Origin: Phragmitibacter flavus
GTDB taxonomy: Bacteria > Verrucomicrobiota > Verrucomicrobiia > Verrucomicrobiales > Verrucomicrobiaceae
Assembly: GCF_005780165.1 (NCBI RefSeq)
Contig: NZ_VAUV01000003.1
Span: 186,001 to 250,000, forward strand
Direction: 5' to 3'
Length of the DNA: 64,000 nt
In this document: positions 282 to 15,580 of the stretch, piece after piece
How positions within the stretch are numbered: position 1 is the first letter of the stretch
Layout: each line of letters begins with the position of its first letter
Notes under the pieces: generated by a model
Databases searched by the model: none
Told to the model about the DNA's origin: nothing
The model's input: only the letters and a program-made list of their open reading frames with translations
Translations under genes and position numbers: made by a program

Positions 282-2111
282 CTAGATCCAAAACCACAGG
301 CGCAATGCCTCCACCAGACGGTGGGTGCCAATCCACAACAATGAACGCTTCTCCGTCGCGATCTTGCAAAGTCCACTCATGCCCGGGCGCCACCATGCTT
401 GCGGTTCTCCAAGCACCTGGGCGCGCAACACAAACACCGTGCCCTCCGCCCGAACCTCTGCCACCGGCTCAAAACGATCCACTTTCACCGAATAAGATTC
501 TCCTGGTCGACTCGCAAAAGCCAGGTCGCCCTGCAGCCCTGCGGACAAATACGAAATGTCGCGTTCATCCACCTGCAGCTGCCCGAAAAGGTCTTTGATC
601 TGCACCACCTTCAACAGCAGTTCACCCGTCTGCACCGGCGACGAAAGCCTCTCGCGCAGATCCCCTTCCACGATCACTCCATCAAACGGCGCGGTCAGTT
701 CCGTCAATTGCAACCGATGCCGAATGACCGCCAGTTTTGCCTCCGCCTGACGCATCTCCGCCTGTGAAACCAACATCTGCGCCAGCTTGCCCTCGCCCTG
801 ATTGCTGCGGACTTCACGTTCGCTTTTGTTGCGCAACGCCACCGTGTCCGCCTCCTCCAACAACAACTCCGTGCGATCAAGGCGCACCAGCACATCGCCT
901 TTTTTCACGATGTCGCCGACATGAAAAGCCGCCTCATCAATAAACCCCGGAAACGGTGCTGAAATCAGCGAAGCCGCATCCGTCTTCAAGATGAACGGTG
1001 CCTTCACCTGATGATCGACATGAATGATCGCCAGTGCCACCAAAGTCACGCAAGACAACACCGCCGCCAGCTTCCAGCCGGTGTGATCCGGTCCCAGCCA
1101 GCCCGCTGCTTTGCGACGAGTCGAACGCCAGATGCGTTTGCCGATCCATCCGGTGCGCCCATGCAAACCTTGCAATCGCGGGGCCACCAAATCAGCCAGC
1201 AACCGCACCCGCTCCAGCTCGCCGATGGTCCAAACCCCTTCCTCCGCCGCGCGCTCCAGACACACCAACCCCACCACTTCCTGTTGATGCCGCAACGGCA
1301 CCGAAGCCACCGCCACCGCCTCTCGCGCCGTGGAAAATTTGCGATGCTCGCGACTCACCACCGAAGTGCCCGCCAGTTCCGGCCAGGCCACTTCGTTGTC
1401 CTGATCCGCCGCCTCCTCCATCACCTGCTGCAGGGCCAGCGCCTCCTGTGAGCCACTCGAGATCCTGCCGCCATGACTGGTGCTCGAAAGCTTCAAATCC
1501 TGACCTTCCATCCACGCAAGCGACACCCGCGAGGCCCGCATCGGTGCCGCCAATTCATTGCAAAGCCGCAACGCCGCCTCCTGAAAATGGCCGCTCTCCC
1601 CCAGCGCAAGGCCGAGATCCATGACCTGCGACAGATTGAGCAGCTTCTCTTCGCTGCGTTGCGCGTGACGACGCGATTGATAAAGATCCGCCAGCGCTCG
1701 CGCTTCTTTGGAAACCGCTTCAATCAAAAGTTCCTCTTCATCGCCGGCAATCCCCTCGGCCACCATCCATAGCGGCGGCAGTCCTTCACGAACCGGAAAA
1801 CTCATCGCCTGATAGCGTCTCCCCAACAGACCCGGCAACGGCGTGAACTCATTGTTGCGGACGTTGCGCAATTCTGCAGTCAAGCCCGACTGCCCCAGAC
1901 GTTTTGCCGCGCCCACTGGTGCCTGTGCCAACACCCGAAACTCACTTCCCGCCCCGCCGCCGACCAGCAAACAAACCGATTCCGCATCCAGACGCGCCGC
2001 CGCATAAGCACAAAGACGTCCCCAAAAAATATTCGGCTCGCCATCAAACGTCGCGAGCAATTCATACTCGGGAATCGAATTCGCAGAGGGCTCGGAAAGA
2101 TCAGGTTTCAT
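282..2111 (-). CDS. GAF-domain/HlyD fusion: membrane-anchored efflux adaptor protein
   Basis: A 609-residue protein. Residues about 20-330 are soluble and contain two GAF-like segments, the second (about 160-300) carrying VASVPLRHQQEVVGLVCLE. A single membrane segment follows at about 345-365 (WKLAAVLSCVTLVALAIIHV). Residues 370-590 form a HlyD-type periplasmic adaptor with a split lipoyl-like domain (ISAPFPGFIDEAAFHVGDIV and LTAPFDGVIVEGDLRERLSS) around a coiled-coil hairpin. The frame can begin at TTG 2129, but ATG 2111 sits 21 bases after the previous stop and gives a sensible N-terminus. A cytosolic sensor domain on a periplasmic adaptor is unusual and suggests ligand-gated or assembly-gated export. 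It lies third in the minus-strand export operon. The adaptor assignment is firm; what GAF binds is unknown. Confidence 0.75.
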   Translation of the reverse strand: MKPDLSEPSANSIPEYELLATFDGEPNIFWGRLCAYAAARLDAESVCLLVGGGAGSEFRVLAQAPVGAAKRLGQSGLTAELRNVRNNEFTPLPGLLGRRYQAMSFPVREGLPPLWMVAEGIAGDEEELLIEAVSKEARALADLYQSRRHAQRSEEKLLNLSQVMDLGLALGESGHFQEAALRLCNELAAPMRASRVSLAWMEGQDLKLSSTSHGGRISSGSQEALALQQVMEEAADQDNEVAWPELAGTSVVSREHRKFSTAREAVAVASVPLRHQQEVVGLVCLERAAEEGVWTIGELERVRLLADLVAPRLQGLHGRTGWIGKRIWRSTRRKAAGWLGPDHTGWKLAAVLSCVTLVALAIIHVDHQVKAPFILKTDAASLISAPFPGFIDEAAFHVGDIVKKGDVLVRLDRTELLLEEADTVALRNKSEREVRSNQGEGKLAQMLVSQAEMRQAEAKLAVIRHRLQLTELTAPFDGVIVEGDLRERLSSPVQTGELLLKVVQIKDLFGQLQVDERDISYLSAGLQGDLAFASRPGESYSVKVDRFEPVAEVRAEGTVFVLRAQVLGEPQAWWRPGMSGLCKIATEKRSLLWIGTHRLVEALRLWFWI

Positions 2112-2132
2112 GCTTGGGGGATGCCGCAAATA

Positions 2133-2906
2133 CTACGGGTTCACTGAAACCGTCGGAAACGGAGTCAACACGCGCAAGCCGGGACGGATCAAACCCGCCT
2201 TGTTGTCCAGCAGCAACCTCACCCGGAACAAACCGCTGCGGGCATCCACTTCAGGATCGATGAAGTTGATCTTCGCCTTCAATCCCTTCACCTCAGGCAT
2301 CTCAGGAAACTGCGCGGGGTATTCCTGACCGAGTTTCAGCAACGACAATTGTGAGGCTTCCAGATGAAACAGCAGCAAGACCTGGTCAGTGGTCATCACT
2401 TGAAGGATGGGATCATTTTCGCTGATCGACTCGCCCGACTCCTTGAACTTGCGCACCACCACTCCCGTCAATGGCGAAACGATTTCGCGTTCATTCACCT
2501 CCGCTTTGGCAATGGCGAGCTCCGCCTGCAAACGTTTCAATTCCACCTCCTTGGCCAAGGCATCGTCGCGACTCGCCACATTCTGTTGGAACAATCGTTG
2601 CGCCGCGTTGAAGTCGAACTGTGCCTTGCTGATCATCTGGTCATACCGCTCCACGGCCAGTCGCTGCTTTTCCGAAAGCAGACTCACCAACAATTGCCCC
2701 TCTTTGATACGTTCCCCTTCCTCCACCTGAATCTTGCCGATGATCTCACGGATTGAAGCACTGATCGTCACCGAGCGAAACGGCTTCACCACCCCTTCCG
2801 TCATCAGATTGACTTCCGCCTCGACGGCAAAACTCACCACCGGTGACGCCATCACTAACAGCATCGTCACACAGGCATAACTAAAACAACGACACGACTG
2901 CTTCAT
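2133..2906 (-). CDS. HlyD/AcrA-family periplasmic adaptor (membrane fusion protein)
   Basis: A 257-residue exported adaptor that would bridge an inner-membrane component and the TolC-like protein encoded just upstream. ATG 2906 starts a clear signal peptide (MKQSCRCFSYACVTMLLVMA, cut near SFA-VEA); the frame also opens at TTG 2939, but that would bury the signal. The lipoyl-like halves are VKPFRSVTISASIREIIGKI (residues about 38-57) and REIVSPLTGVVVRKFKESGE, separated by a helical hairpin of roughly 75 residues, then a beta-barrel region ending RPGLRVLTPFPTV. It is shorter than RND adaptors such as AcrA (near 400 residues), and its C-terminal membrane-proximal domain is small. It is followed within 21 bases by the GAF-HlyD gene. 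No pump gene is adjacent, so the substrate cannot be named. Confidence 0.8.
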   Translation of the reverse strand: MKQSCRCFSYACVTMLLVMASPVVSFAVEAEVNLMTEGVVKPFRSVTISASIREIIGKIQVEEGERIKEGQLLVSLLSEKQRLAVERYDQMISKAQFDFNAAQRLFQQNVASRDDALAKEVELKRLQAELAIAKAEVNEREIVSPLTGVVVRKFKESGESISENDPILQVMTTDQVLLLFHLEASQLSLLKLGQEYPAQFPEMPEVKGLKAKINFIDPEVDARSGLFRVRLLLDNKAGLIRPGLRVLTPFPTVSVNP

Positions 2907-2973
2907 TTCAAGGGGGGACCTCACTGGGGAATTTCTCAAATGGCAGATGAATCCTGGTGCCGGCCTAAATCGA

Positions 2974-4656
2974 CTACTTCTTGGATTTGGATTTTTTGGT
3001 CATGGAAGGTGCCGGACCCACCGAGGCCCCCTGGCTGCTTTCCTTCTCCATCTCTTCCACGATGATGCCCTGCTTCTCCAGCATCTCGCCCGTCACCAGC
3101 CAAAGGTCGACCTGATCCTTGTTAAGATCCGCCAAAGCCGCCAGCTCACGACTGCGCGTCTGCGAATATTCCTCCTGATATTGTAACACCTGATAACTGG
3201 TGGAGACCCCTTCCGTCAGACGCTTCACTTCACCTTCCATCGTGCGTTGGGCGACCTCGCGGCTCTTGCGCGCCGAAATCAAACGCTGCCGATCCATGTC
3301 AATCCGGCTCAACACCGTGTCCAGTTCCAACGAAATCAGCGCCTTTACCCGATCCACATCGATCATTGCCTGGGTCTCCAAATGCTGAGCCAGACGGGCT
3401 TGTGAACGCATGCGTTTCACCCCAAGCGGAACCGAAAACGTCACTCCGACGGTCCATTCCGGACCCTGACCACCCAATGCCTCATCATAAGAACTGCCCG
3501 TGCTGCCCGCCAAACCGTGAACGCCGCCGCTCGCAATCAGATCAAATCGCGGACGCGACTGGTTCTCCGCCAGCAAGGTCTGATGTTTGCGCTGATCCAC
3601 AATTTCCAACGACTGCAGCACATCATATCGCGCTGCCGAAGCCTTGCCCAACAGCTCAGCCCGCGGGGCCACCTGCACCGATTCCCTCAAATAATCCGCT
3701 GGCCGAATCCGCAGGCTCTGTCCCGCATCCGCTCCTTTTTTGAACAGCGTTTGCAACGTGTTCTGCCGTTCGATGTATTGGGTCTCCGCCAGCAGCGCAC
3801 CTTCCTTACGTGCGTAAACCGCCGCTTCCGCCACCAGCACATCATTCGGCTGCATCACTCCCTCTTCACCGCGCTTTTTGTTGTCGCTAAAAAGTTTCTC
3901 CGCCAGTTCGATGGAATCGCGCTGCACCGCCATGTTTTCATACGTGAAGATCACGTCATAATAGAGCTTCATCACGTTCCCCACCGTTGCCGCCGTGCGC
4001 GCCCGCCATTCGAGATCCGCCACACGCATGTTGGAACGGGCGATGCGCAGTTCCGCAAGGTTCGCACTGTTGCCAAAATCCCTCAACAACGGCTGGGTCA
4101 CGGTCAAACCAGTGAAGGTCTCATACTCCGGATTAAAAAGTCCCGGCGGCAGATTGCGGTTCAAACTGTTGTCCAACACCCGCAGGCTGCTGCCCAGTTC
4201 AAAGGTCGTGCCCCAAGGAATTTTCTGCACCAGGGCCACCTTAGCCACATGGTTGCGTTGCTCAAAAATGGTCGGCTCCCCGAGGATCGGCGTGGACAGA
4301 CCCGTTTGCGAAGCGATCACTTCAGGAGTCGCCGCACCACCACCCGTGGCTACAAAATCCTGGGCGTTTTGTGGCGTGTCGATGTATTGATAGGCATAAG
4401 CACCTTCCAGTTTAGGATCAAATGCCGAACGCGCGATGTTCGCCCGCTCCTGTTCAATCACCTTGTTAAGATTCTGAACCGCAATGTCGTGGTTGTTCTC
4501 CAAAGCGAGAGCAATGACCTCCTGAAGGCTCATTTTCCTCACCTCAACCTCATCCGCAACAACCCCCGTTCCAACCATTCCTATGGTGCCTAGAGCAACT
4601 AATTGAGCCAGGCAAAAATATGTTGGAACGGCACACCGGGGATTAGTAGATTTCAT
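2974..4656 (-). CDS. TolC-family outer membrane efflux protein
   Basis: A 560-residue outer-membrane channel subunit of the TolC/OEP family. ATG 4656 begins a signal peptide (MKSTNPRCAVPTYFCLAQLV, cleavage near VVA-DEV); the frame extends upstream to 4776 without a convincing N-terminus. After the signal come the long alpha-helical repeats of the family (MSLQEVIALALENNHDIAVQ near the start), two OEP repeats separated by beta segments such as FTGLTVTQPLLRDFGNSA and EWTVGVTFSVPLGVKRMRSQ, and a basic tail (KKSKSKK). It is the first gene of the minus-strand export operon; the HlyD adaptor starts 67 bases after its stop. It should form the trimeric exit duct for whatever this operon exports. Confidence 0.85.
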   Translation of the reverse strand: MKSTNPRCAVPTYFCLAQLVALGTIGMVGTGVVADEVEVRKMSLQEVIALALENNHDIAVQNLNKVIEQERANIARSAFDPKLEGAYAYQYIDTPQNAQDFVATGGGAATPEVIASQTGLSTPILGEPTIFEQRNHVAKVALVQKIPWGTTFELGSSLRVLDNSLNRNLPPGLFNPEYETFTGLTVTQPLLRDFGNSANLAELRIARSNMRVADLEWRARTAATVGNVMKLYYDVIFTYENMAVQRDSIELAEKLFSDNKKRGEEGVMQPNDVLVAEAAVYARKEGALLAETQYIERQNTLQTLFKKGADAGQSLRIRPADYLRESVQVAPRAELLGKASAARYDVLQSLEIVDQRKHQTLLAENQSRPRFDLIASGGVHGLAGSTGSSYDEALGGQGPEWTVGVTFSVPLGVKRMRSQARLAQHLETQAMIDVDRVKALISLELDTVLSRIDMDRQRLISARKSREVAQRTMEGEVKRLTEGVSTSYQVLQYQEEYSQTRSRELAALADLNKDQVDLWLVTGEMLEKQGIIVEEMEKESSQGASVGPAPSMTKKSKSKK

Positions 4657-5202
4657 AAATGCACAGAACTGATTAATTTCAGCTTCGGCTGTATGTGCAT
4701 GATGCCCAACAATTGTCGACGAATTTCCTTCGGATTTTCGATAATAAATGCATCCAACGGTCAGGCCGACATCCATGATGGCCGATCAAAATTGCAGCAA
4801 CTCACCAGCCGCCAAGGTTAAAAACCATGTCTCCAAAGCGTGGCAAACTGGAGGGCATGCTGACGACGTATAACCCCCTGTCATGACGGACAGCCTCACT
4901 GCCGGTCAACGCCTCAACCGCAAATCGCAGAATTCATCGATCGTAAAAGTTCATAGAAGACTATCCGTTGAAATTGGATGCTTGATGAGTTGACGCGCTT
5001 GTTCGTGTTGCCCGCACTAACTCCCAGCCATTCAGCAGGATTTTTTTGTGCCCGAAAATCCAAACCTATCGATGGATATCATTCGCGTCCCATTCTCTCC
5101 TTGATGGGACCAAAACGCGATTCAAAGCGATTCACATGCGACCTTTACACTTAGGGCTGCCAACCATAGGGTGATTTCCCCAAATCAAAACTTCCATTAG
5201 CC
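4657..5202. other. Intergenic region between the divergent export and stressosome operons
   Basis: About 545 bases separate the TolC-like start from the rsbR start. I see no credible gene: the open frames are short and lack starts with ribosome-binding sites. An imperfect hairpin with 7-base arms (GTCCCAT and ATGGGAC, loop of 10) lies at 5087-5110, and a T-rich run begins at 5041. Promoters for both divergent operons should lie here, but no -35/-10 pair is convincing enough to place. Confidence 0.4.
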
Positions 5203-6057
5203 ATGACCACTCTTCCTGATTTAATCGGCAAAGCAAAATCCACGATTCTTAGTGAGTGGGTCCGGCAACAAATCGAAGCGCCAGGGATGCGGTCTGACCT
5301 TATCAATGATGCGCAATTGAAAACCCAGTCGGCCGAATTTTTCCAGCAATTCCAGAAGGGACTCGAGAGCGGCGAACTGAAAAACGTCAAGGTGGCGGCT
5401 TGGGAACCGACCCTGAACCTTCTCAGCGAATTTTCCCGCCAGCGCGAGCGCATGGGCTTTTCCCCATCGGAAACGGCGCTGTTCGTCTTCTCACTGAAAG
5501 ACCCTCTCTTCGATCAATTGCGCAAAGATTTTAAGGCTGAGCCGGATCGTCTGGTGGACACGATGACGGCCATGTCGGGACTTCTCGACAAACTGGGTCT
5601 CCACACCATGGAGGTTTATCAGGTGGCGCGTGAAGACGTCATTCGTCGTCAGCAGGAGGAACTTCTCGAGCTCTCCACGCCGGTGGTCAAACTTTGGGAA
5701 GGCATCGTGGCCCTGCCCCTGATCGGCACGCTCGACAGCGCCCGCACCAGTGTGGTGATGGAATCCCTTTTGCAGCGCATCGTCGAAACAGGATCAGACA
5801 TCGCCATCATCGACATCACTGGCGTGCCGACGGTCGACACTCTGGTCGCGCAACATCTCCTCAAAACGGTGGCCGCCGCCCGGCTCATGGGTGCCGACTG
5901 CATCATCAGCGGCATCCGGCCCCAAATTGCCCAGACCATGGTGCACTTGGCCATTGATCTTAGCGCGGTAACGACCAAAGCGACCATCGCCGAGGCACTC
6001 AAGGTCGCTCTTCAACGCACTGGCCACCGATTCGTCCGGGATGCCGAGGCCAAGTAA
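5203..6057 (+). CDS. rsbR: RsbR-type stressosome scaffold protein (sensor domain plus STAS)
   Basis: A 284-residue cytosolic protein. Residues 1-145 form an all-helical N-terminal domain of the RsbR_N (globin-like) kind that is expected to sense stress. Residues 160-275 form a STAS domain. Both phosphorylation threonines of the family appear: Thr176 in PLIGTLD and Thr210 in DITGVPTVDT. They are 34 residues apart, as in Bacillus RsbRA Thr171 and Thr205. RsbR and RsbS co-assemble into the stressosome and hold the kinase RsbT until RsbT phosphorylates them. The gene heads a tight plus-strand run rsbR-rsbS-rsbT-phosphatase-kinase, with 50 bases to rsbS. The family and the phosphosites are firm; the signal sensed is unknown. 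Confidence 0.92.
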   Translation: MTTLPDLIGKAKSTILSEWVRQQIEAPGMRSDLINDAQLKTQSAEFFQQFQKGLESGELKNVKVAAWEPTLNLLSEFSRQRERMGFSPSETALFVFSLKDPLFDQLRKDFKAEPDRLVDTMTAMSGLLDKLGLHTMEVYQVAREDVIRRQQEELLELSTPVVKLWEGIVALPLIGTLDSARTSVVMESLLQRIVETGSDIAIIDITGVPTVDTLVAQHLLKTVAAARLMGADCIISGIRPQIAQTMVHLAIDLSAVTTKATIAEALKVALQRTGHRFVRDAEAK

Positions 6058-6107
6058 CTCACCGACGTTTCCTTCCGCCACCTACCTTTCCCCAACCCAC
6101 CGAATCT

Positions 6108-6464
6108 ATGCAAGACCGCATCCCGATTCTGCACATGAGCAACATCCTGCTCGTGACCATTCAAGTCGACATGCACGACCGACTGGCCTTGCAGTTGCAG
6201 GATGACTTGACCACCAAGATCTCCGACACCGGTGCAAGCGGGGTTCTCATCGACATCTCCAGCCTGGAAATGGTCGACTCATTCATTGGCAGAGTATTGG
6301 GCAACATCTCCTCAATGGCCCGAGTTCTCGATGCAAAAACCGTGGTGGTCGGTATGCAGCCCGCGGTGGCGATCACGCTCGTCGAGCTGGGGCTTTCTCT
6401 GGAAGGCGTGCTCACCGCCCTGAATGTGGAGAAGGGTATGAAACTTTTGGCAAAGGGCAGATGA
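6108..6464 (+). CDS. rsbS: RsbS-type stressosome STAS protein
   Basis: A 118-residue single STAS domain, the usual length for RsbS. The phosphorylatable serine is Ser58 in the motif SLEMVDSFIGR, equivalent to Ser59 of Bacillus RsbS. RsbS holds RsbT inside the stressosome; phosphorylation by RsbT releases it. The start MQDRIPILHMSNILLVTIQV matches the family (RIPIL, then an NILLV strand). The stop is followed after only 3 bases by the rsbT start, so the two are almost certainly translationally coupled. Confidence 0.94.
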   Translation: MQDRIPILHMSNILLVTIQVDMHDRLALQLQDDLTTKISDTGASGVLIDISSLEMVDSFIGRVLGNISSMARVLDAKTVVVGMQPAVAITLVELGLSLEGVLTALNVEKGMKLLAKGR

Positions 6465-6467
6465 ACC

Positions 6468-6872
6468 ATGCCCGTGCTTAAAAGCGAAATTCAACCCGTT
6501 CTCACGGAAAACGACATCGTTTACGTGCGGCAGAACGTTCGCAAATGGTGCCTTGAACTGAAGTGCTCTCTCGTCGATCAAACCAAGGTGGTCACGGCGG
6601 CCAGTGAGCTTGCGCGGAACCTTCTCATCTACGGCGGCGGCGGCGAAGTTCACCTTGAGCTGGTGCAGGAAGGTGTGCGCAACGGACTGCGCATTGCTTT
6701 TGTGGATGAGGGTCCGGGCATCCCGGATATCGAGCAAGCCTTGAAGGACGGATTCACCAGCGGCAAAGGCATGGGCCTCGGCCTCGGGGGTGCGCGACGG
6801 CTGGTCAACGATTTCCATATCGAGTCAGAAGTTGGAAAAGGAACCCGCATCACCATCACCAAATGGCGCTAG
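6468..6872 (+). CDS. rsbT: RsbT-type serine/threonine kinase (switch kinase of the stressosome)
   Basis: A 134-residue GHKL ATPase/kinase. The N box is SELARNLLIYGGGG, the G1 box DEGPGI and the G2/lid GKGMGLGLGGARRL, all as in RsbT and other anti-sigma-type kinases. It should phosphorylate RsbR and RsbS and then be released to activate a partner. In Bacillus the partner is the phosphatase RsbU; no rsbU is present here. The next two genes instead each carry a further RsbT-like domain, which suggests different partners. The start ATG 6468 follows the rsbS stop by 3 bases. Confidence 0.93.
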   Translation: MPVLKSEIQPVLTENDIVYVRQNVRKWCLELKCSLVDQTKVVTAASELARNLLIYGGGGEVHLELVQEGVRNGLRIAFVDEGPGIPDIEQALKDGFTSGKGMGLGLGGARRLVNDFHIESEVGKGTRITITKWR

Positions 6873-6888
6873 GCCCGCTGTTCTGACC

Positions 6889-7890
6889 ATGCCCGCAACC
6901 CTCCAACTCCCGGTGCAGGACCGATCCCAAGTGGGTGAGGCCCGACGCCTCGCTTGCGCATGGGCCGCAAAGCACGGCAGCTCCCAACAACAGCAAGGGA
7001 AACTCGCACTCATCGTATCCGAACTCGCCAACAATCTTGCCCTTCATACCACCGAAGGCGGCAAAATTCTGGTGCAGGTGCTCGTCGAAAACGATCCGAC
7101 CACCCTTGAAGTCCTCGCCTTGGACAACGGACCTGGGAGCGCCAACTTCACTGCCTTTCTTCAGGACGGATTCTCCACCACAGGCACCGCCGGAACTGGC
7201 CTGGGGGCGGTTCAACGGGGCTCCAGCCTTTTTGAAATGCACTCAAATCCTCAAACTGGCACGGCGCTTTTGAGCCAACAGGGCGAGGGACACGAGTCAA
7301 ACCATGCCCACTTCGGCATGATCAACGTGCCCATCCGTGGGGAACACGTTTGCGGAGACAGCCTTGGATACTTGGATCTTGGCGGCGGTCGACAACGGCT
7401 CATGGTGGCCGATGGACTGGGTCACGGACCTCTGGCAGCGGACGCGTCTCTCGCTGCCATCGCGACCTTTAAATCCAATCCCCATTTGGATCTTATCTCC
7501 CTGCTGCAAAAAGTTCACACCGCTTTGAAAAGCACCCGTGGTGCCGCCGTAGCCGTGGCTGAAGTCGACGCCAACACCCAGAAACTGCTCTACGCCGGCG
7601 TTGGCAATATCGCCGGATCCATCGTTCACCAAGTCGATGAATACAGCCACCTGGTCTCGATGAATGGAACTCTTGGCATGGCCTGCGGACGCATCCAACA
7701 GTTCAGTTATGCCTGGCAGCCGGAGAGCCTGTTGGTCATGACTTCTGATGGGGTCAAAAATCACTGGCGCCTCGACCGTTATCCCGGCCTCATCAATCGC
7801 CACCCCAGTCTCATCGCCGGCGTGCTTTTCCGCGACTACGCGCGAGACAATGACGATGCAACGGCCGCTGTCCTCCGATTTAGCGTGTAA
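6889..7890 (+). CDS. RsbT/RsbW-like ATPase fused to an RsbX-like SpoIIE phosphatase
   Basis: A 333-residue protein with two domains. Residues about 10-135 are a GHKL ATPase domain (IVSELANNLALHTTEGG as N box, LDNGPGS as a G1-like box, TTGTAGTGLGAVQRG as lid). Residues about 145-333 are a PP2C-type SpoIIE phosphatase (VADGLGHGPLAADAS, then YAGVGNIAGS, then MTSDGVKNHW), most like RsbX, which dephosphorylates RsbR and RsbS and resets the stressosome. ATG 6889 is chosen because it lies 16 bases after the rsbT stop and matches the start of the ATPase fold; the frame extends upstream to 6790 inside rsbT. The G1 box reads DNGPG rather than DxGxG, so nucleotide binding may be altered. The resetting role is inferred from family and position. 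Confidence 0.88.
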   Translation: MPATLQLPVQDRSQVGEARRLACAWAAKHGSSQQQQGKLALIVSELANNLALHTTEGGKILVQVLVENDPTTLEVLALDNGPGSANFTAFLQDGFSTTGTAGTGLGAVQRGSSLFEMHSNPQTGTALLSQQGEGHESNHAHFGMINVPIRGEHVCGDSLGYLDLGGGRQRLMVADGLGHGPLAADASLAAIATFKSNPHLDLISLLQKVHTALKSTRGAAVAVAEVDANTQKLLYAGVGNIAGSIVHQVDEYSHLVSMNGTLGMACGRIQQFSYAWQPESLLVMTSDGVKNHWRLDRYPGLINRHPSLIAGVLFRDYARDNDDATAAVLRFSV

Positions 7891-7900
7891 CCACTCAGTC

Positions 7901-10189
7901 ATGAGCAGCGACTCACAGTCTTTACCCCTCCACATCGTGGATCTCCACGTGGAAAAAGACATCGTGGTCTGTCGTCAACATGCGCGCCAGTTTGCTTCAG
8001 CACTCGGATTTGACCTCCAAACGCAGACACGGATCGCCACCGCAGTTTCTGAAATCGCCCGCAACGCCTATCAATATGCAAGCGGCGGCGTGGTGGAGTT
8101 TTTGTCTGATTGTGAAACCAACAGCCAACGGCGATTCGACCTCCGACGTCAAAGTTTCATCATCATCATCAGGGATCAAGGCCCCGGCATCCCTCATCTG
8201 AAAACCATCCTTGAAGGCGACTATCGATCCACCACCGGCATGGGTCTCGGCATCATCGGTGCCCGTCGCCTCATGGACACGGTGGACATCCAGTCGGACT
8301 CAAAGGGCACGGTCATCACCCTTCAAAAAAACCTGCCCCCTTCCGCTGCCCGTAAAACCGACGCGCAGATCCAGAGCATCGCCGTGATCCAGTCGGAACC
8401 GGCTGCCGTGGAGCGCACCGTCATTGCCGAGGTGCAGAGGCAGAATCAGGAACTCATCACCGTGATGGATGAGGTGCGGCTCCGTCAGGAAGACCTCGAT
8501 CATCTTAACAAGGAACTTGAAGATACCAATGCGGGCGTGCTTGCGCTTTACGATGAGCTGGAGACTCTCCACCGTGTGGGCCTGTTGCTCGCGTCGAAAA
8601 TTGACCTGCCAGCCGTCATGCAAACCTTGATTGAGGCCACCACCGATCTAACCGGGGCTCAGTTCGGTGTGTGTTACATGCTCAACAAAAAGACCGGACA
8701 TTGGGAACGCTACGCCGATGCCGGACCAAAACGTGATTTGTTGTCAGATCTACCGAAGACCCAGGGATCCGACTTCTTCGGAAGCAATTTCGGCGAGGAA
8801 GGACTAACGCATGTCCCGGACATGGAAGACCTGTCTGAGCCCAGTTGCATGTCTGATTTTTCGGCGGCGCTTGATCCTTCCAACAAGCTCAGGAGTTGCC
8901 TCGCGTTCCCTTTGAAGGCCGAGAACAATTCGGTCGTCGGAGCCCTCATCTTCGGCAGCTCAGAACCGCGTTTCTTTTCCGAGAGAAGCGAGCGTATCGT
9001 TTCAAGCATTGCCGCCCAAGCCATTGTCGCCGTTGAGAAGGCCCGGTTGTTTGACAGCGTCAAGTCAGCCAGCGAGGCAAAAGACCGCTTTCTGGCAATG
9101 TTAAGCCACGAGCTGCGAACCCCGCTTAATCCGGTGCTCAGCATTGTCTCCGACCTGCATCAAAATCCCTCCTTCCCCAAGGAGTTTCAGGAAGATATCG
9201 CCGTCGTGTTGCGCAACGTGCAGCTTGAAGCACGACTTATCGACGACTTATTGGACTTTCAGCGCATCATCAAAGGGAATTTCAGCTTCGCTTCAGAACC
9301 CGTTGATGCCCATTCCATCATTGAGACCGTGGTCAATATTTGTAAGCACGATTTGCTAAGTCACAAACATCATCTCACTCTGAATCTGGACGCCCCTAGA
9401 TTTATCGTGATCGGCGACCCCGCCCGACTTCAACAAATTCTCTGGAATGTGCTGAAAAACGCCATCAAATTCACCCCCATCGGCGGCGACATCTCCATCA
9501 CCACCGAGTTGGGTAGTAGTGACCAGACATTGTGTATTGTCATCACGGATACCGGTCGCGGCATTGAAAACGAAATGCTCGAAGGGATCTTCAATGCTTT
9601 CGAGCAGGGCAGTTTGGAGGGCACCACCGAGTTCGGCGGATTGGGACTCGGCCTTGCCATCGTCAAGGCCTTCATTGAAAAACTGGGCGGCACCGTCAAA
9701 GCCGAAAGTGCTGGCCGGGATCACGGCACAAAAATGATTCTAAGCTTCCCACTGGTCGATGTTTTGGCACCAGGAATTGCCCCGGTTCTGGAACCTACCG
9801 ATCAAAAGCCCGGCCTTATCGGCGGAAAGGCTCAACATGTCCTTTTGGTGGATGACCACTTCGATACTCTTGAAAGTCTTTCCCGGATTCTCGCTAGAAA
9901 AGGCTATGTGGTCACCACGGCCGTTGACTGCGCCTCGGCCTTTACCTTGGCCCAGAACCAAACCTTTGATGTGATTTGCAGCGACCTCGGACTCCCCGAT
10001 GGTTCTGGACTCGACCTCATGATTGACATTCGCAAGCTCGGGATCACCACCCCCTCCATCGCACTCAGTGGATACGGGATGGAGAGTGATGTCGCCCAGG
10101 CACAGGATGCCGGTTTTCAAAAGCATCTCACCAAGCCGGTCTCGATGCACGCGCTGTTGAGCGCGCTGGCTGGAGTGCTCGCCGATTAG
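7901..10189 (+). CDS. Hybrid histidine kinase with an N-terminal RsbT-like ATPase domain
   Basis: A 762-residue cytosolic protein. The order is: RsbT-like GHKL domain (residues about 10-145, SEIARNAYQYASGG, RDQGPGI, TTGMGLGIIGARRL), coiled coil (about 165-220), GAF domain (about 225-385), HisKA with the phospho-His near 403 (MLSHELRTPLNP), HATPase (WNVLKNAIKFTP, TDTGRGI, GGLGLGLAIV) and a receiver (LLVDDHFDTLES, phospho-Asp in CSDLGLPDG near residue 693, Lys in LTKPVS). ATG 7901 lies 10 bases after the phosphatase gene and replaces an upstream frame opening at 7748. As last gene of the stressosome run it is probably the output: RsbT or stressosome interaction through the first domain would steer a phosphorelay. 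No partner response regulator is adjacent. Confidence 0.9.
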   Translation: MSSDSQSLPLHIVDLHVEKDIVVCRQHARQFASALGFDLQTQTRIATAVSEIARNAYQYASGGVVEFLSDCETNSQRRFDLRRQSFIIIIRDQGPGIPHLKTILEGDYRSTTGMGLGIIGARRLMDTVDIQSDSKGTVITLQKNLPPSAARKTDAQIQSIAVIQSEPAAVERTVIAEVQRQNQELITVMDEVRLRQEDLDHLNKELEDTNAGVLALYDELETLHRVGLLLASKIDLPAVMQTLIEATTDLTGAQFGVCYMLNKKTGHWERYADAGPKRDLLSDLPKTQGSDFFGSNFGEEGLTHVPDMEDLSEPSCMSDFSAALDPSNKLRSCLAFPLKAENNSVVGALIFGSSEPRFFSERSERIVSSIAAQAIVAVEKARLFDSVKSASEAKDRFLAMLSHELRTPLNPVLSIVSDLHQNPSFPKEFQEDIAVVLRNVQLEARLIDDLLDFQRIIKGNFSFASEPVDAHSIIETVVNICKHDLLSHKHHLTLNLDAPRFIVIGDPARLQQILWNVLKNAIKFTPIGGDISITTELGSSDQTLCIVITDTGRGIENEMLEGIFNAFEQGSLEGTTEFGGLGLGLAIVKAFIEKLGGTVKAESAGRDHGTKMILSFPLVDVLAPGIAPVLEPTDQKPGLIGGKAQHVLLVDDHFDTLESLSRILARKGYVVTTAVDCASAFTLAQNQTFDVICSDLGLPDGSGLDLMIDIRKLGITTPSIALSGYGMESDVAQAQDAGFQKHLTKPVSMHALLSALAGVLAD

Positions 10190-10210
10190 CGGCCACAGGA
10201 CCTGATCCAC

Positions 10211-13200
10211 TTAGTTCCTTTTTTGCAAAAGGTCGCGCAACACGCTTAGATTGGCAGGCTTCACCAGGTATTCGTCAAAACCCGCCCGCTTCGCCTCAGC
10301 GATGTCTTCGCTGCTGCCATAACCACTCAAGGCGATCAGAAAAACGTCCTTTAGATCAGGCAGGGTGCGTAACTTCCGTGCCACCTGAAAGCCATCCATG
10401 CCAGGGAGACCGATGTCCAACAACACAACATCGGGAAGAAACTCCGTGGCGGCGGTGATGGCGTCCGGGCCGGTAAATGCCGTCTTGGTCACGTGACCCC
10501 GACGCCGTTGCAGCAAGGCGAGACTCTTGGCAGCATCAACGTTGTCATCGACAACAAGAATTCGCCGCGATGCCTCACGCGCGACGGGCGCTGGCGCTGG
10601 TTGTGTTGACGGACCCTCATCAACAATGGGCAGGCGGACAACGAAGGTGGCACCTTTGTCAGGTCCGTCGCTGTGGGCGGTGATGCTGCCGCCATGCATG
10701 CTGACCAAGCGCTTCACCAAAGTAAGGCCGATACCCAAGCCGCCATGGGCCCGGTCGAGCGTATGACTGGCCTGAACGAAGAGATCGAAGATATGAGGCA
10801 GCAAGTCAGACGAGATGCCAATTCCATCGTCAATGACACTTATCTCCACCTCGTGCGTATCGCTTCCGATCTTGCCAGAGGGAGAAAGAGCCTTGGCAAG
10901 AGCAGAGTTTTTTACCACCAACTCAGCTTTCACGGTGATGTGACTGCCATTCCCACTGTATTTGCAGGCGTTGGATAAAAGATTGACGAAGACCTGCTCG
11001 ATCCGCGTCGCATCGGCATCCACATAGACAGGCTCTTGGGGCAACGTGAGAACGAGTTGCTGATCCTGCGCATCGCAACTGGCACGCACCGTGGCAGCGG
11101 CGGCGGCGAGGATGGCTTCCAGCGCCAGAGGTTTTTTCCGCAGCCCAATCTTGCCTTCGGTGATGCGGGAAACATCCAGCAAGTCATCCAGCATCCGGCT
11201 CATGTTCTCAATCTGTCGAGTGATGACGTGTTGAGCTTGGATTCTCTCCTCCACGCTGATGTTGCCGCAATTGAGCAACTCAGTGGCATTGCGGATCGGT
11301 GCCAATGGATTGCGAAGCTCATGAGCCAGCATGGCAAGAAACTCGTCCTTGCTGCGATCCGCCCTGGCCAGTTCTTCAGCTCGGGAAATGATCGCTTGTT
11401 CAAGTTCACGCCGCACTGTCACGTCGCGTGAAACGGCAAGCAAGCGCGTCGGCTGCCCCCGCGCATCCAGGATGGGCGAGATGGCCACGTCCCACCATTT
11501 ATCAAGGCCATGCAGCGTTCGGAAAAATCCGACGAAACTGGCTTCGTTGCCGGCCGCAGCCGCGGCAACGGTTTCGCGCGCCGCCATCAGGTCCTCCGCG
11601 CTTGACCAAAATTCAATCCACGACTTGCCGACAAAAGGCGTGATGTCCGGGATGCCCAGCAATTCCTGCCCGGCCTCAATGGAAAGTAGATTGCCGTCAA
11701 GGTCGAGCACCTTGATGCAGTCCGGGCTGCTGTCGATGATGCTGCGCTTAAATTCCTCGCTCTTCCGGATCGCCTCCTCGGCTTCCCTGCGCTCGATGAG
11801 CAAGGATGCCGTGCTGGACACCATTTCGCTCAACAACTTCTCCCGCACTCCCGGCTCGCACGGCTCCGTGTAAAAACAAACGAACGTTCCCAGCACTCTG
11901 CCAGTGGAGGCAACGATGGGTGTGCTCCAGGCGGATTGCATTCCCTGAGAACGTGCAAATTCGGCCAGCAGGGGATACTCATCACAGTTGGCAATTTCGG
12001 GCACGACCTCGCGTTCCCGGCGTGTCACGGCGGCACAACAGGGGCCCCCATGACTGCTCACGGCCATGCCATTGACCTTGTCCGCATAAGCAGGAGGCAG
12101 CGACGTCGTGATGGTCCTGGTGAATGTTTCGCCCTTGTCATCCAGCAGATGAATGGCAGTGCGGGTTCCCGCCGGAGACTGCACCTCGGAGGTGACGGTC
12201 AGGAACTCAAGCACTTCAAGCAATAGCGTTCCACGTGCGGATTTTTCAAGCGCTTCCTTCGACGCCGATTGCAGCAGTTCAGCCTGTCGCAGTTCGTGAA
12301 TGTCGGTGTTGCTGCCAAAGTATCGCACCACCTTCCCTGCGTCATCACGAATGACCTTCATCCGCGAAAGGAACCAGCGATACTCACCGCCGTGATTGCG
12401 CAGAGGAAAGGTATCCTCGCAGTCCTGGCCCTCGGTCAGGTGCCGCTCGAACTTTTCCTTCACCGCCTCAAGATCATCGGGGTGTAGCGCACGCATCCAG
12501 CCGTCTCCCACATTGTCTTCCAACGTCGTGCCGGTATAACTGAGCCAAACCTGGTTGAACCACACCATGCGTCGGTCAGCGTTGGCCAACCATGCAAGCT
12601 GTGGGATGTGGTCGGTAATGGCATGAAGCCGTTGTTCGCTTTCGCGCAGCGCCGTTGCGGCTGCCACTCGATCGGTGATGTCCTCGAGCGACATGATGAT
12701 CAGCGCTTCGTCCTCAACCACCTGCCGTAACCGGCTCGCATTGACCATGATGATGCGCGGACCAATATCTTCAAACGTGTGCTTCACCTCGTAGTTCTCG
12801 ACCACCTGCTCCTGCACCAGCATATCTTCGAGCAGCATGCGCAAAGCAGGGATGTTCCACTGGCCGTTGCCGAGATTGTAAATGTAACGGCCCTCGGTCT
12901 TGTCGGGTTCGACACCGAAGTGATCGTAGAAAGCGAGGTTGGCCGACTTCACACGCAACGAGCCATCGAGCATCACCAGCGGAATGCGCACATTGGCAAT
13001 GATGTTCTCCGCGTAGTCGCGCGCCCGATGCAAAGTATCCACATCCACCAGCGTGACCACGGCTCCGTCAATTTTGTTATCGTGCGTGAGATAGGGCCGG
13101 GCGCGCAAGGAAAACCAGTGTCCATTGGCATCCTGAATTTCCCGCTCGCGGGGACCCACCGTATCAATGACCTCGCTCAGAAGGGGTTCAAGGTCAGGGA

Positions 13201-15580
13201 TGGCGAGACTCAACTTGATGTCGCTCAGCGGACGCCCGATGTCGCCCTTGGCAAGGTTGAGCGTCTTTTCCGCCATGGGGGTGAAACGCCGGATGCGCAA
13301 TTCGCGTGAGACGATAACGATGGAAAGCTGCGTGCTGGCGAGCACGTTGTTGAGGTCGTTGTTGAGTCCGTTGAGTTCGAGATTGCGGCTGTTGAGCTCG
13401 TCATTGACCGTCGCCAGCTCCTCGTTGCTGGACTGGATTTCCTCTTTTGAGGTCTCAAGCTCCTCGTTGATGCTCTGCATCTCCTCGTTGGTGGATTGCG
13501 CCTCCTCGTTGGCAGTTTGCAGCTCTTCGTTGGCAAAATCCTGCTGTTCGATGACGGACTGGAGATATTCACGCGTGGTAACAAGCTCACGAGTGAGGCG
13601 GGCGATCTCATTGGCCTGATCGCTGTCCGCATTGCGAAGGTCCCGCGACTTTGGCAGCGCGGGGGGCTGCAGGCTTCCGTGGGTTGGCACGTCATGCTCG
13701 TCGAAAATGACAATGAAACCCGCCTCGCGATCCTGAGCCGCCTTGAGCGGGATCACTTCGATCGCGACCGCACGGTGGCCACCACTGCTTTTTACCCAAG
13801 CACCCTCCTCGCGCACCGCTTGACCGTCGCTTTGCGCCCGGGCAATGGCGCTGCGCACCGGAACGAGCAACCCTTCGCGCAGCATTTTCAGAAGGTCATG
13901 ACTGGCCATCCCGGACGCCGGTGCCAGAAATTCTCCGGTGTCGCCGCGAAATTGCACCACCTCCATCACCGCGTTGATGACCACACACGGCGGCACGTAT
14001 TTTGCCAGCAACACACGTTCGGCATCCCGGTGCAGCATCGCCGGAGGTTTCTCCCGTGGACCCGCTGCCGCTGGCGCAAAACCGGAGGCGCCATGCGACG
14101 GACGGAAACGCGCGTCGGGAGATGTGGGTCCGGGCCGACGGGTGAAAATTTTCTGCCGCGCATCTTCAACATCAAATAGAGCGCGGGATGTGCCCAGCGA
14201 TTCCGAACTGCCAAGCCAGAGATGCCCGCCAGGTTTCAACGCGTAGTGCAGCAGCGGTAACACCTGTTGTTGCAGCACAGGCTCAAGATAAATGAGCAGG
14301 TTTCGACAGGAGACAAAGTCCACTTTCGAAAACGGCGGATCGGCCAGCACATTGTGCCGCGAGAAAACCACACGCTCACGAATGCTTTTGCTGACGCGGT
14401 AGAATCCTTCTTCCTCGGTGAAGAACTTTCGCAGCCGTTCGGGTGAAACATCCAGCGCAATGCTCTTTGGATAGCGCCCCGCGCGCGCCTTCTCAATGCC
14501 CGAAGCATTCAAGTCGCTGGCAAACATCTGCAATTGCACCGAGCGTTTCGTCGACTCGGCGCACTCCGCGAACAGCATCGCCAGCGAATACGCCTCCTCG
14601 CCCGTCGAACAGCCCAGCGTCCAGATGCGCACTGGTTCGTGATTGGAGCGCTCAGCAATCACCTTCGGAAAAATCTTCTTCGCCAGCACTTCAAACGCCT
14701 CGGGATTGCGAAAGAAGCTGGTCACGTTGATGAGCACATCCTGATAAAGCGCTTCGATCTCGCCCGGGGTCGCCAGCAGGTGTTCCTCGTATTCCGCCAA
14801 CGTCTCAATCTTGTGCACCAACATGCGCCGCTGGATGCGCCGCTGCATCGTGTTCGCTTTGTAATGGGTAAAATCCACGCCGAGTGCCCGATGCAAAATT
14901 CCCGCGATCCGTCCATGCCCCGGCTCGTGAACGACGCCTTCCCTAATTTCCGTCGCGACATAAGGATGCCGGGCCAGGCGGGCGATTTCATGAGCGATCC
15001 CCTCCGGTGGCAAAACAAAATCGACACTCCCAGTCGCCGCCGCGCTTTTTGGCATCGAATCATACTCCGCGCTCTCATCCTGGGCGAAAGTCACGCCCCC
15101 CTCGGCCTTGATGATCTCCAATCCCAGCGTGCCATCCGTCGCGCTGCCGGAAAGCACCACTCCGATCGCCTGATGCCCGCTGTCCTCGGCGAGCGAACGG
15201 AAAAATTGGTCAATCCCGCGATGTCGTGCTTCGCGCACCTGGGGCAAAAGCTGCAACTTCCCGCCCTCAATGATCATGTCCCGCCCGGGTGGAATGACAT
15301 AAACGTGATTCGCTTCCACCGTCGGCTCATCCCGCACCTGACAGACAGGCATCTCCGTCGCGCGAGAAAGAATTTCCGCGAGATTGCTGACATGCGAAGG
15401 TGCCAGATGCTGGACAATGACAAACCCCATCCCCGTGTTGTCCGGGATCGCACGCAACAGCTGAGACAATGCTTCCAATCCACCTGCTGAAGCGCCGACA
15501 CCCACAATAGGAAACTTCGCCCCCTGTCGAGGTGCGGTATTTTGCGTCGCTTCCGACGAGGGATTGATGTCAGAAGGCAT
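10211..15580 (-). CDS. CheB-CheR-PAS-GAF hybrid histidine kinase (1789 residues)
   Basis: One continuous frame. Residues about 22-200 are a CheB methylesterase domain (GASAGGLEAL, VQHLAPSHVS, GSATDGTLGL give the Ser-His-Asp triad). About 215-490 are a CheR methyltransferase (SFFRNPEAFE, LGCSTGEEAYSLAM). About 675-740 are a long Glu/Asn-rich coiled coil (TANEEAQSTNEEMQSINEE). Three PAS segments and one GAF segment follow (about 760-1400), then HisKA (LAMLAHELRNPLAP), HATPase (GGLGIGLTLVKRL) and a receiver (LVVDDNVDAA, VVLLDIGLPGMDG, YLVKPA). It lacks the N-terminal receiver of classical CheB, as is usual in CheB-CheR kinases. It converges on the stressosome kinase with a 21-base gap. No chemoreceptor or CheA is nearby, so the methylation target is unknown. 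Confidence 0.93.
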   Translation of the reverse strand: MPSDINPSSEATQNTAPRQGAKFPIVGVGASAGGLEALSQLLRAIPDNTGMGFVIVQHLAPSHVSNLAEILSRATEMPVCQVRDEPTVEANHVYVIPPGRDMIIEGGKLQLLPQVREARHRGIDQFFRSLAEDSGHQAIGVVLSGSATDGTLGLEIIKAEGGVTFAQDESAEYDSMPKSAAATGSVDFVLPPEGIAHEIARLARHPYVATEIREGVVHEPGHGRIAGILHRALGVDFTHYKANTMQRRIQRRMLVHKIETLAEYEEHLLATPGEIEALYQDVLINVTSFFRNPEAFEVLAKKIFPKVIAERSNHEPVRIWTLGCSTGEEAYSLAMLFAECAESTKRSVQLQMFASDLNASGIEKARAGRYPKSIALDVSPERLRKFFTEEEGFYRVSKSIRERVVFSRHNVLADPPFSKVDFVSCRNLLIYLEPVLQQQVLPLLHYALKPGGHLWLGSSESLGTSRALFDVEDARQKIFTRRPGPTSPDARFRPSHGASGFAPAAAGPREKPPAMLHRDAERVLLAKYVPPCVVINAVMEVVQFRGDTGEFLAPASGMASHDLLKMLREGLLVPVRSAIARAQSDGQAVREEGAWVKSSGGHRAVAIEVIPLKAAQDREAGFIVIFDEHDVPTHGSLQPPALPKSRDLRNADSDQANEIARLTRELVTTREYLQSVIEQQDFANEELQTANEEAQSTNEEMQSINEELETSKEEIQSSNEELATVNDELNSRNLELNGLNNDLNNVLASTQLSIVIVSRELRIRRFTPMAEKTLNLAKGDIGRPLSDIKLSLAIPDLEPLLSEVIDTVGPREREIQDANGHWFSLRARPYLTHDNKIDGAVVTLVDVDTLHRARDYAENIIANVRIPLVMLDGSLRVKSANLAFYDHFGVEPDKTEGRYIYNLGNGQWNIPALRMLLEDMLVQEQVVENYEVKHTFEDIGPRIIMVNASRLRQVVEDEALIIMSLEDITDRVAAATALRESEQRLHAITDHIPQLAWLANADRRMVWFNQVWLSYTGTTLEDNVGDGWMRALHPDDLEAVKEKFERHLTEGQDCEDTFPLRNHGGEYRWFLSRMKVIRDDAGKVVRYFGSNTDIHELRQAELLQSASKEALEKSARGTLLLEVLEFLTVTSEVQSPAGTRTAIHLLDDKGETFTRTITTSLPPAYADKVNGMAVSSHGGPCCAAVTRREREVVPEIANCDEYPLLAEFARSQGMQSAWSTPIVASTGRVLGTFVCFYTEPCEPGVREKLLSEMVSSTASLLIERREAEEAIRKSEEFKRSIIDSSPDCIKVLDLDGNLLSIEAGQELLGIPDITPFVGKSWIEFWSSAEDLMAARETVAAAAAGNEASFVGFFRTLHGLDKWWDVAISPILDARGQPTRLLAVSRDVTVRRELEQAIISRAEELARADRSKDEFLAMLAHELRNPLAPIRNATELLNCGNISVEERIQAQHVITRQIENMSRMLDDLLDVSRITEGKIGLRKKPLALEAILAAAAATVRASCDAQDQQLVLTLPQEPVYVDADATRIEQVFVNLLSNACKYSGNGSHITVKAELVVKNSALAKALSPSGKIGSDTHEVEISVIDDGIGISSDLLPHIFDLFVQASHTLDRAHGGLGIGLTLVKRLVSMHGGSITAHSDGPDKGATFVVRLPIVDEGPSTQPAPAPVAREASRRILVVDDNVDAAKSLALLQRRRGHVTKTAFTGPDAITAATEFLPDVVLLDIGLPGMDGFQVARKLRTLPDLKDVFLIALSGYGSSEDIAEAKRAGFDEYLVKPANLSVLRDLLQKRN

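Follow-up and report, generated by a model that had tools for sequence, protein, structure and literature searches.

The SigB stressosome of Bacillus and Listeria (rsbRSTUVW-sigB-rsbX) contains RsbR, RsbS, and RsbT with conserved phospho-acceptors, the PP2C phosphatase RsbX, and an RsbU_N phosphatase, RsbV/RsbW, and SigB. RsbT switches RsbU via the ordering of a coiled-coil linker; D92 of RsbT faces R91 of RsbU (PMC12143880). The rsbRSTX modules also precede other, diverse outputs, including phosphorelay kinases, and in a survey of globin-sensor stressosomes most of the signaling proteins downstream of rsbRSTX lack RsbU_N, the route to them being left open (PMC9237108). Here, we describe a module of this kind in Phragmitibacter flavus, the five-gene run rsbR-rsbS-rsbT-T'X-T''kinase, located in a stretch of 64,000 nucleotides of contig NZ_VAUV01000003.1 (the window, to which all positions refer). 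T denotes RsbT; T' and T'' denote the additional RsbT-like domains that are fused in front of the RsbX-type phosphatase (T'X) and the kinase, respectively. With a probability of roughly one half, we read the locus as an RsbU-less stressosome with a hybrid histidine kinase output, in which RsbT would read a helical linker of the kinase and T'' would act as a docking platform.

The locus shares RsbR, RsbS, RsbT, the PP2C phosphatase, and the conserved phospho-acceptors with the Bacillus and Listeria systems, but lacks the RsbU_N phosphatase, RsbV/RsbW, and SigB, and its output is a kinase. The stressosome of Moorella thermoacetica also has a non-sigma output, a diguanylate cyclase, which consists of RsbU_N and GGDEF (PMC4976288, PMC12143880), whereas the output here consists of T'', the linker, and a histidine kinase. 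The rsbRSTX-D1-D2 locus of Vibrio vulnificus shares the rsbRSTX order, the absence of rsbU and sigB, and the two-component kinase downstream (PMC9237108). In contrast, RsbR in V. vulnificus has a globin sensor and RsbX is a single domain, whereas RsbR here has an RsbRD_N domain and the phosphatase is fused to T'; the passages on D1 in PMC9237108 mention no RsbT-derived domain, which our kinase has in T''. A phosphorelay output after rsbRSTX has already been published (PMC9237108); T', T'', and the linker are apparently new: no description of them was found in the open-access PubMed Central (PMC) literature, as far as its retrieved passages go.

Results

An rsbRSTX-type module followed by a hybrid histidine kinase

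Open reading frames (ORFs) and Pfam domains confirmed the five-gene run that an earlier note on this DNA had proposed at 5203-10189 (Table 1), as well as its intergenic gaps of 50, 3, 16, and 10 bases and the absence of rsbU, rsbV, rsbW, and sigma factor genes within it. In RsbR, the STAS domain carries the Thr equivalents T176 (5728-5730) and T213 (5839-5841); these columns are Thr in 87/89 and 88/89 RsbR proteins of our set of loci, respectively, and in Listeria RsbR. RsbS carries S58 (6279-6281), which is Ser in all 90 RsbS proteins of the set and in Listeria. We take T176, T213, and S58 to be the phospho-acceptor sites. The rsbT gene adjoins rsbS, and the N-box Glu and Asn and the G1 Asp of T are kept in 90/90 sequences.

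The PP2C phosphatase after rsbT carries the metal Asp residues, with D157, D175, D287, D322, and D323 invariant in 57 aligned rows, and its top solved relatives are 3zt9, which we take to be Moorella RsbX, and RsbX 3w40. The locus departs from the known rsbRSTX modules in that its RsbX is not a single domain, T' being fused in front, as is also the case in the best 80 loci described below, which were selected for T'. Such a module would be expected to form a megadalton RsbR:RsbS complex that binds RsbT. The fifth gene encodes a hybrid histidine kinase, with the phospho-acceptor His403 in HisKA, a HATPase_c domain, and the receiver Asp695 all present.

T' and T'' are RsbT-type ATPase domains

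The family placement of the ATPase domains was examined in a FastTree tree of 278 sequences and 137 columns, rooted with histidine-kinase ATPases. The input comprised 90 T, 92 T', and 79 T'' from 92 loci (the window, four relatives from the same phylum, seven plasmid loci, and 80 genome loci), and the references were four RsbT, one RsbW, 10 histidine-kinase ATPase domains, and the two RsbW-like proteins encoded in the P. flavus genome. Before the counts, the loci L015, L021, L031, and L049 were left out of the kinase set, and L042 and L086 out of the T set. The three domains formed separate clades, containing 92/92 T' (support 1.0), 90/90 T (0.79), and 78/79 T'' (0.77). Together with the RsbT references, they were separated from RsbW and the kinase ATPases with a support of 0.76, or 0.97 when a single stray T'' is disregarded. 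Of the RsbT references, three, including that of Listeria, joined T (0.87), and the fourth joined T' (0.93). The separate clades suggest that three specialized roles were fixed before the arrangement spread.

The AlphaFold2 model of T'' and the linker (monomer; predicted local distance difference test (pLDDT) score 91.4) likewise set T'' apart from the histidine kinases. Its best fold matches were SpoIIAB (1l0o, Z 15.6, 131 aligned, 2.3 Å) and RsbW (6m36, Z 14.7, 103 aligned, 1.3 Å), and the best histidine kinase was RetS (6dk7, Z 8.7, 112 aligned, 3.1 Å), in a ranking that contained no RsbT structure. LvrC, a response regulator of Leptospira (9qih, Z 11.2), SiaB (6kko, Z 10.0), and further anti-sigma factors ranked between RsbW and RetS. 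A histidine-kinase origin is therefore rejected by the tree for both T' and T'', and by the fold ranking for T''; the extra ATPase domains are RsbT-like, as the earlier note had stated.

The catalytic residues are present in both domains. The N-box Glu, Asn, and G1 Asp are found in 92, 92, and 92 of the 92 T', and in 79, 77, and 75 of the 79 T'', respectively. The Asp aligned to D94 of Listeria RsbT is kept in 88/90 T and 90/92 T', and is Gly in 74/79 T''. We take Listeria D94 to be equivalent to D92 of B. subtilis RsbT, the residue in contact with RsbU. Because this contact-equivalent Asp is Gly in nearly all T'', RsbT is favored over T'' as the reader of the linker.

For T'X (AlphaFold2 model, pLDDT 92.9), loci of Burkholderiales with fewer genes are informative. 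L125, L126, and L127 are two-gene T'X-RsbR units, in which RsbS and RsbT were not recognized within 12 kb, and L128 has the order R-S-T'X-kinase, with no separate T recognized in the stretch examined. Since T'X adjoins RsbR without a recognized T at these loci, the sequences suggest that T' binds, and possibly phosphorylates, STAS proteins that its phosphatase half resets. Automatic annotation of such genes already reads ATP-binding SpoIIE phosphatase. The RsbU-RsbW fusion Rv1364c of Mycobacterium (3ke6), which is not known to be part of an rsbRST operon, also combines a GHKL anti-sigma-type kinase and a PP2C domain in one chain, but differs from T'X in domain order and in GHKL subfamily. It matched T weakly in sequence (E 0.14) and T'' in fold (Z 12.3).

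The linker persists where T'' is absent or decayed

The kinases share a signature linker, which connects T'' to the output domain and has the consensus ExQxQNQELLRxLxELRxRQEELxxLNRELEDTNRGVVALYAELDEKA; in the kinase of the window, it carries the motif QNQEL...LNKELEDTNxGVLALYxEL. In the monomer model, the linker lies within one predicted helix of 59 residues that connects the N-terminal and output domains; its likeness to the RsbU linker is one of analogy. A linker model seeded with 25 of the 88 module kinases matched 87 of them. The linker was found in 87 of the 5,468 ORFs of the same loci, namely in 86 module kinases and in a SpoIIE phosphatase that occupies the kinase position at the Streptomyces locus L015.

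The linker was also sought in whole genomes. Among 288 genomes of the Verrucomicrobiota phylum, the linker occurred in five, which are the five with T'X. Among 399 Burkholderiales genomes, it occurred in 16, at 21 places. In 14 of these genomes, a T'X gene and the linker are no more than ~530 bases apart (in G860, T'X matches in two pieces); one of the others has the linker on another contig, and the other, G937, has two weak matches only. At four of the places, the linker is a second copy distant from T'X, the module itself lying elsewhere in the genome. One such second copy, L129 (4166-5614), is an orphan T''-linker histidine kinase, around which no core gene was recognized in 9 kb.

T'' is more variable than the linker. 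Eight module kinases lack T'' (L013, L014, L035, L056, L062, L076, L078, and L082), and all of them keep the linker. In L005, T'' is unrecognizable and the linker is kept, and the T'' motifs are partly lost in L003, L022, L063, L070, and L091. The protein of Streptomyces L015 has GAF and SpoIIE domains behind a decayed T'' and the linker; that of the archaeal locus L099 has no T'', and its linker is followed by a PAS domain and a kinase ATPase domain. Conversely, the Phaeobacter kinase L098 has T'' ahead of HisKA_2 and no clear linker. As the linker persists where T'' is absent or decayed, these comparisons of sequence indicate that T'' is optional and that the linker is more constant.

A further kinase, at L118 (6197-7381), follows a single-domain RsbX and starts with a degenerate RsbT-like domain (hmmsearch E 5e-7), which may connect the Vibrio-type outputs to T''; this N-terminus had no tblastn match in plasmids. 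Vibrio D1 was considered as a carrier of a decayed T'' and rejected, the kinase at the D1 position of Vibrio sp. THAF191c alone being insignificant (hhalign 0.005-0.007; hmmsearch 0.52 against the 5,468 ORFs plus five test sequences). A two-row alignment of the Vibrio sp. THAF191c and L118 kinases reached 4e-7 over 152 columns; as L118 alone scored 1.8e-6 to 2.5e-5, its row may carry the signal. A search for D1 relatives gave no match in 369 genomes of the class of a Cellvibrio metagenome-assembled genome (MAG), a negative that carries no weight because no positive control matched either.

The arrangement recurs across many phyla

When one genome per species was searched with the phosphatase, at least 437 relatives were found; the best 80 loci were examined, a selection that biases the following frequencies. 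The genes R-S-T-T'X lie in order in 76/80, a T'' is directly downstream in 71/80 (one of them, L031, ends at a contig edge), a kinase without T'' in 6/80, and all six features are present in 65/80. The three loci with neither comprise L021 and L049, which run off their contigs, and L093, whose kinase is upstream; L002 and L017 are the same contig, with identical length and gene coordinates. Judged by record titles and genera, the best 80 include Verrucomicrobia, Cyanobacteria, Acidobacteria, Planctomycetes, Gemmatimonadetes, Proteobacteria, Myxobacteria, Ignavibacteria, and a Methanoregula MAG (an archaeon). The module at L065 is on a contig labeled as a Klebsiella pneumoniae MAG, a label that may be wrong.

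A search for the same gene order in other Verrucomicrobiota, as the earlier note had proposed, gave seven matches to the phosphatase at 1e-10 among the 288 genomes of the phylum, five with T'X and two over the phosphatase domain only. The same five genes are also found on plasmids of Sphingomonas, Deinococcus radiodurans R1 (MP1), Deinococcus sp. KNUC1210, and Paraburkholderia; in Paraburkholderia, the annotation splits rsbR into two genes that overlap. The wide distribution of the module, and the linker as the element that is kept when T'' is lost, had not been recognized in the earlier note.

A further kinase gene follows the fifth gene in 65/83 loci, three of them doubtful (L030, L060, and L086); all 44 of those given to Pfam have a receiver, HisKA, and HATPase_c. 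No such gene is present at the window or its close relatives L016 and L017. At L086 (Ramlibacter pallidus), rsbS is followed directly by T'X and rsbT is gone. This was rejected as proof that T is dispensable, because a second locus in the genome carries a full RsbT beside another T'X.

No SigB-type output was found in the genome

RsbU_N (PF08673) had no match in the genome, including the kinase, in a search that matched only Bacillus subtilis among 14 control genomes. No SigB/F/G-type sigma factor (SigBFG) exceeded the cut-off of 234.35 bits in the genome, the best of seven weaker sigma matches reaching 129 bits. A SigB-type output was therefore rejected. Since the extra ATPases are RsbT-type and no SigB-like output was found, the best reading is that the stressosome would feed a phosphorelay. 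On both points the earlier interpretation stands; that such an output had already been published for rsbRSTX modules (PMC9237108) had escaped it. Its further proposal, that the extra ATPase domains compete for RsbT binding sites or mimic RsbT there, would be a hypothesis. Elsewhere in the genome, contig 5 (L100, 2623-5456, minus strand) carries adjoining genes for an RsbW-like ATPase, a STAS protein, and a SpoIIE-domain phosphatase, which form a separate partner-switching set, and contig 17 carries RsbW-like and STAS genes.

Gene layout and flanking genes

For genes 4 and 5, the longest ORFs begin upstream of the starts in Table 1, at 6790 and 7748, respectively; the starts chosen are consistent with the domains. 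The nearest long ORFs on either side of the run are on the minus strand. Spacing and synteny suggest that the five genes form one operon, and the recurrence of the gene order across phyla places the arrangement beyond chance. In a promoter scan of 4777-10260, no sigma-70-like promoter was found, against 2.2 expected.

Table 1. Positions of the five genes in the window and of the domains of the kinase
Feature	Position	Strand	Domains and remarks
Gene 1, RsbR	5203-6057	+	RsbRD_N (5215-5523) and STAS (5689-5997), Pfam
Gene 2, RsbS	6108-6464	+	Single STAS, Pfam
Gene 3, RsbT switch kinase (T)	6468-6872	+	HATPase, Pfam
Gene 4, RsbX-type PP2C phosphatase (T'X)	6889-7890	+	T' HATPase_c_2 (6922-7254) and SpoIIE/PP2C (7384-7758)
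Gene 5, hybrid histidine kinase	7901-10189	+	HATPase_c_2, GAF_2, HisKA, HATPase_c, and Response_reg, Pfam
T'', RsbT-like GHKL domain of kinase	7916-8344	+	7970-8329 in domain list; N-box and G1 residues intact
Signature linker of kinase	8399-8575	+	Residues 167-225, predicted one helix
GAF of kinase	8603-9037	+	
HisKA of kinase	9077-9268	+	
HATPase_c of kinase	9413-9754	+	
Receiver (REC) of kinase	9839-10168	+	

A convergent gene at 10211-15580 (minus strand), 21 bases past the end of the run, encodes a CheB-CheR-PAS-GAF-HisKA-HATPase-REC protein of 1789 amino acids that shows no sign of membership. Upstream, a divergent cluster at 282-4776 (minus strand) appears, by eye only, to be efflux- or secretion-like, with HlyD-like, TolC-like, and GAF/HlyD-like proteins.

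Discussion

Our inferences on complex formation, on what T, T', and T'' bind, on the direction in which the kinase is switched, and on phosphotransfer are as follows. RsbR and RsbS would form the core, and upon stress RsbT would phosphorylate the conserved Thr and Ser residues and depart. T' would bring the phosphatase back to the core for reset. By analogy with RsbU, the freed RsbT would act on the linker of the kinase, T'' serving as a docking or dimerization platform in place of RsbU_N, and RsbT on the linker would switch the autophosphorylation of His403 and the transfer to the receiver Asp695.

Several observations weigh against this scheme. T'' mostly retains its catalytic residues, although docking alone would not require them. 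The Vibrio study reports no positive interaction between RsbT and D1 (PMC9237108), and no publication showing RsbT in direct contact with a kinase of this kind was found in the retrieved passages of the open-access PMC literature. Of the 50 Burkholderiales genomes with a match to the T'X profile, some of them partial, 34 have no linker match. Seven loci of these 34 genomes were inspected (L123-L128 and L130): L130 has a single-domain RsbX after rsbT, L124 is a 3.5-kb contig, and L123 carries the whole module, with rsbR in two ORFs, and a T'' kinase without a linker match. In addition, the linker was missed at 1e-3 in L086 (0.0035) and in Phaeobacter L098 (0.73), and L011 and L064 retain only its first half.

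The retained ATP site of most T'' could instead mean that T'' works in cis: it would bind RsbS or RsbR and thereby sequester the kinase, and upon release would act on its own linker, RsbT only phosphorylating the core. The RsbT-type position of T'' in the tree, its SpoIIAB/RsbW fold, and its direct fusion to the linker helix are consistent with this explanation. However, the linker is kept in the eight module kinases that have no T'', T'' is decayed in others, and the Asp aligned to the linker-contact residue is Gly in 74/79 T'', so that we consider a cis action unlikely, though by no means negligible. The intact N-box and G1 residues, found in every T' and most T'', would also fit a hub of partner switches, in which T' and T'' would act independently as STAS kinases on anti-anti-sigma substrates of their own outside the core. 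Other STAS and RsbW-like genes are indeed present elsewhere in the genome, and Streptomyces L015 has an extra annotated STAS gene ~2.3 kb upstream of rsbR. Nevertheless, no third STAS protein was found within the module with the RsbR and RsbS models, which do not cover STAS proteins in general and failed to detect the extra gene of L015, and in L125-L127 T'X adjoins RsbR with no other STAS partner recognized nearby; such independent roles appear improbable.

A SigB-like cascade elsewhere in the genome might also be the real output, with the kinase as a modulator, and the adjoining RsbW-like, STAS, and SpoIIE-domain genes on contig 5 would be candidates for it. The genome lacks RsbU_N and a SigBFG match over the cut-off, however, no linkage to the module was seen, and in 77 of the best 80 loci, across many phyla, the gene right after the phosphatase encodes a kinase, with or without T''. 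We regard this explanation as very improbable. Thus, the reading of the linker by RsbT, with T'' as a docking platform, is the one that we prefer.

More generally, and with somewhat less than even confidence, we propose that RsbU-less stressosomes of bacteria and some archaea use a portable transmitter, an RsbT-derived domain and a helical linker placed before HisKA kinases, PAS kinases, or SpoIIE phosphatases, which would be decayed in the outputs of stressosomes with a single-domain RsbX. If true, this transmitter would explain how outputs are reached by stressosomes that have no RsbU_N target. The linker and the attached RsbT-derived domain would then be a concrete candidate binding site, as well as a sequence signature for stressosome outputs in unannotated genomes.

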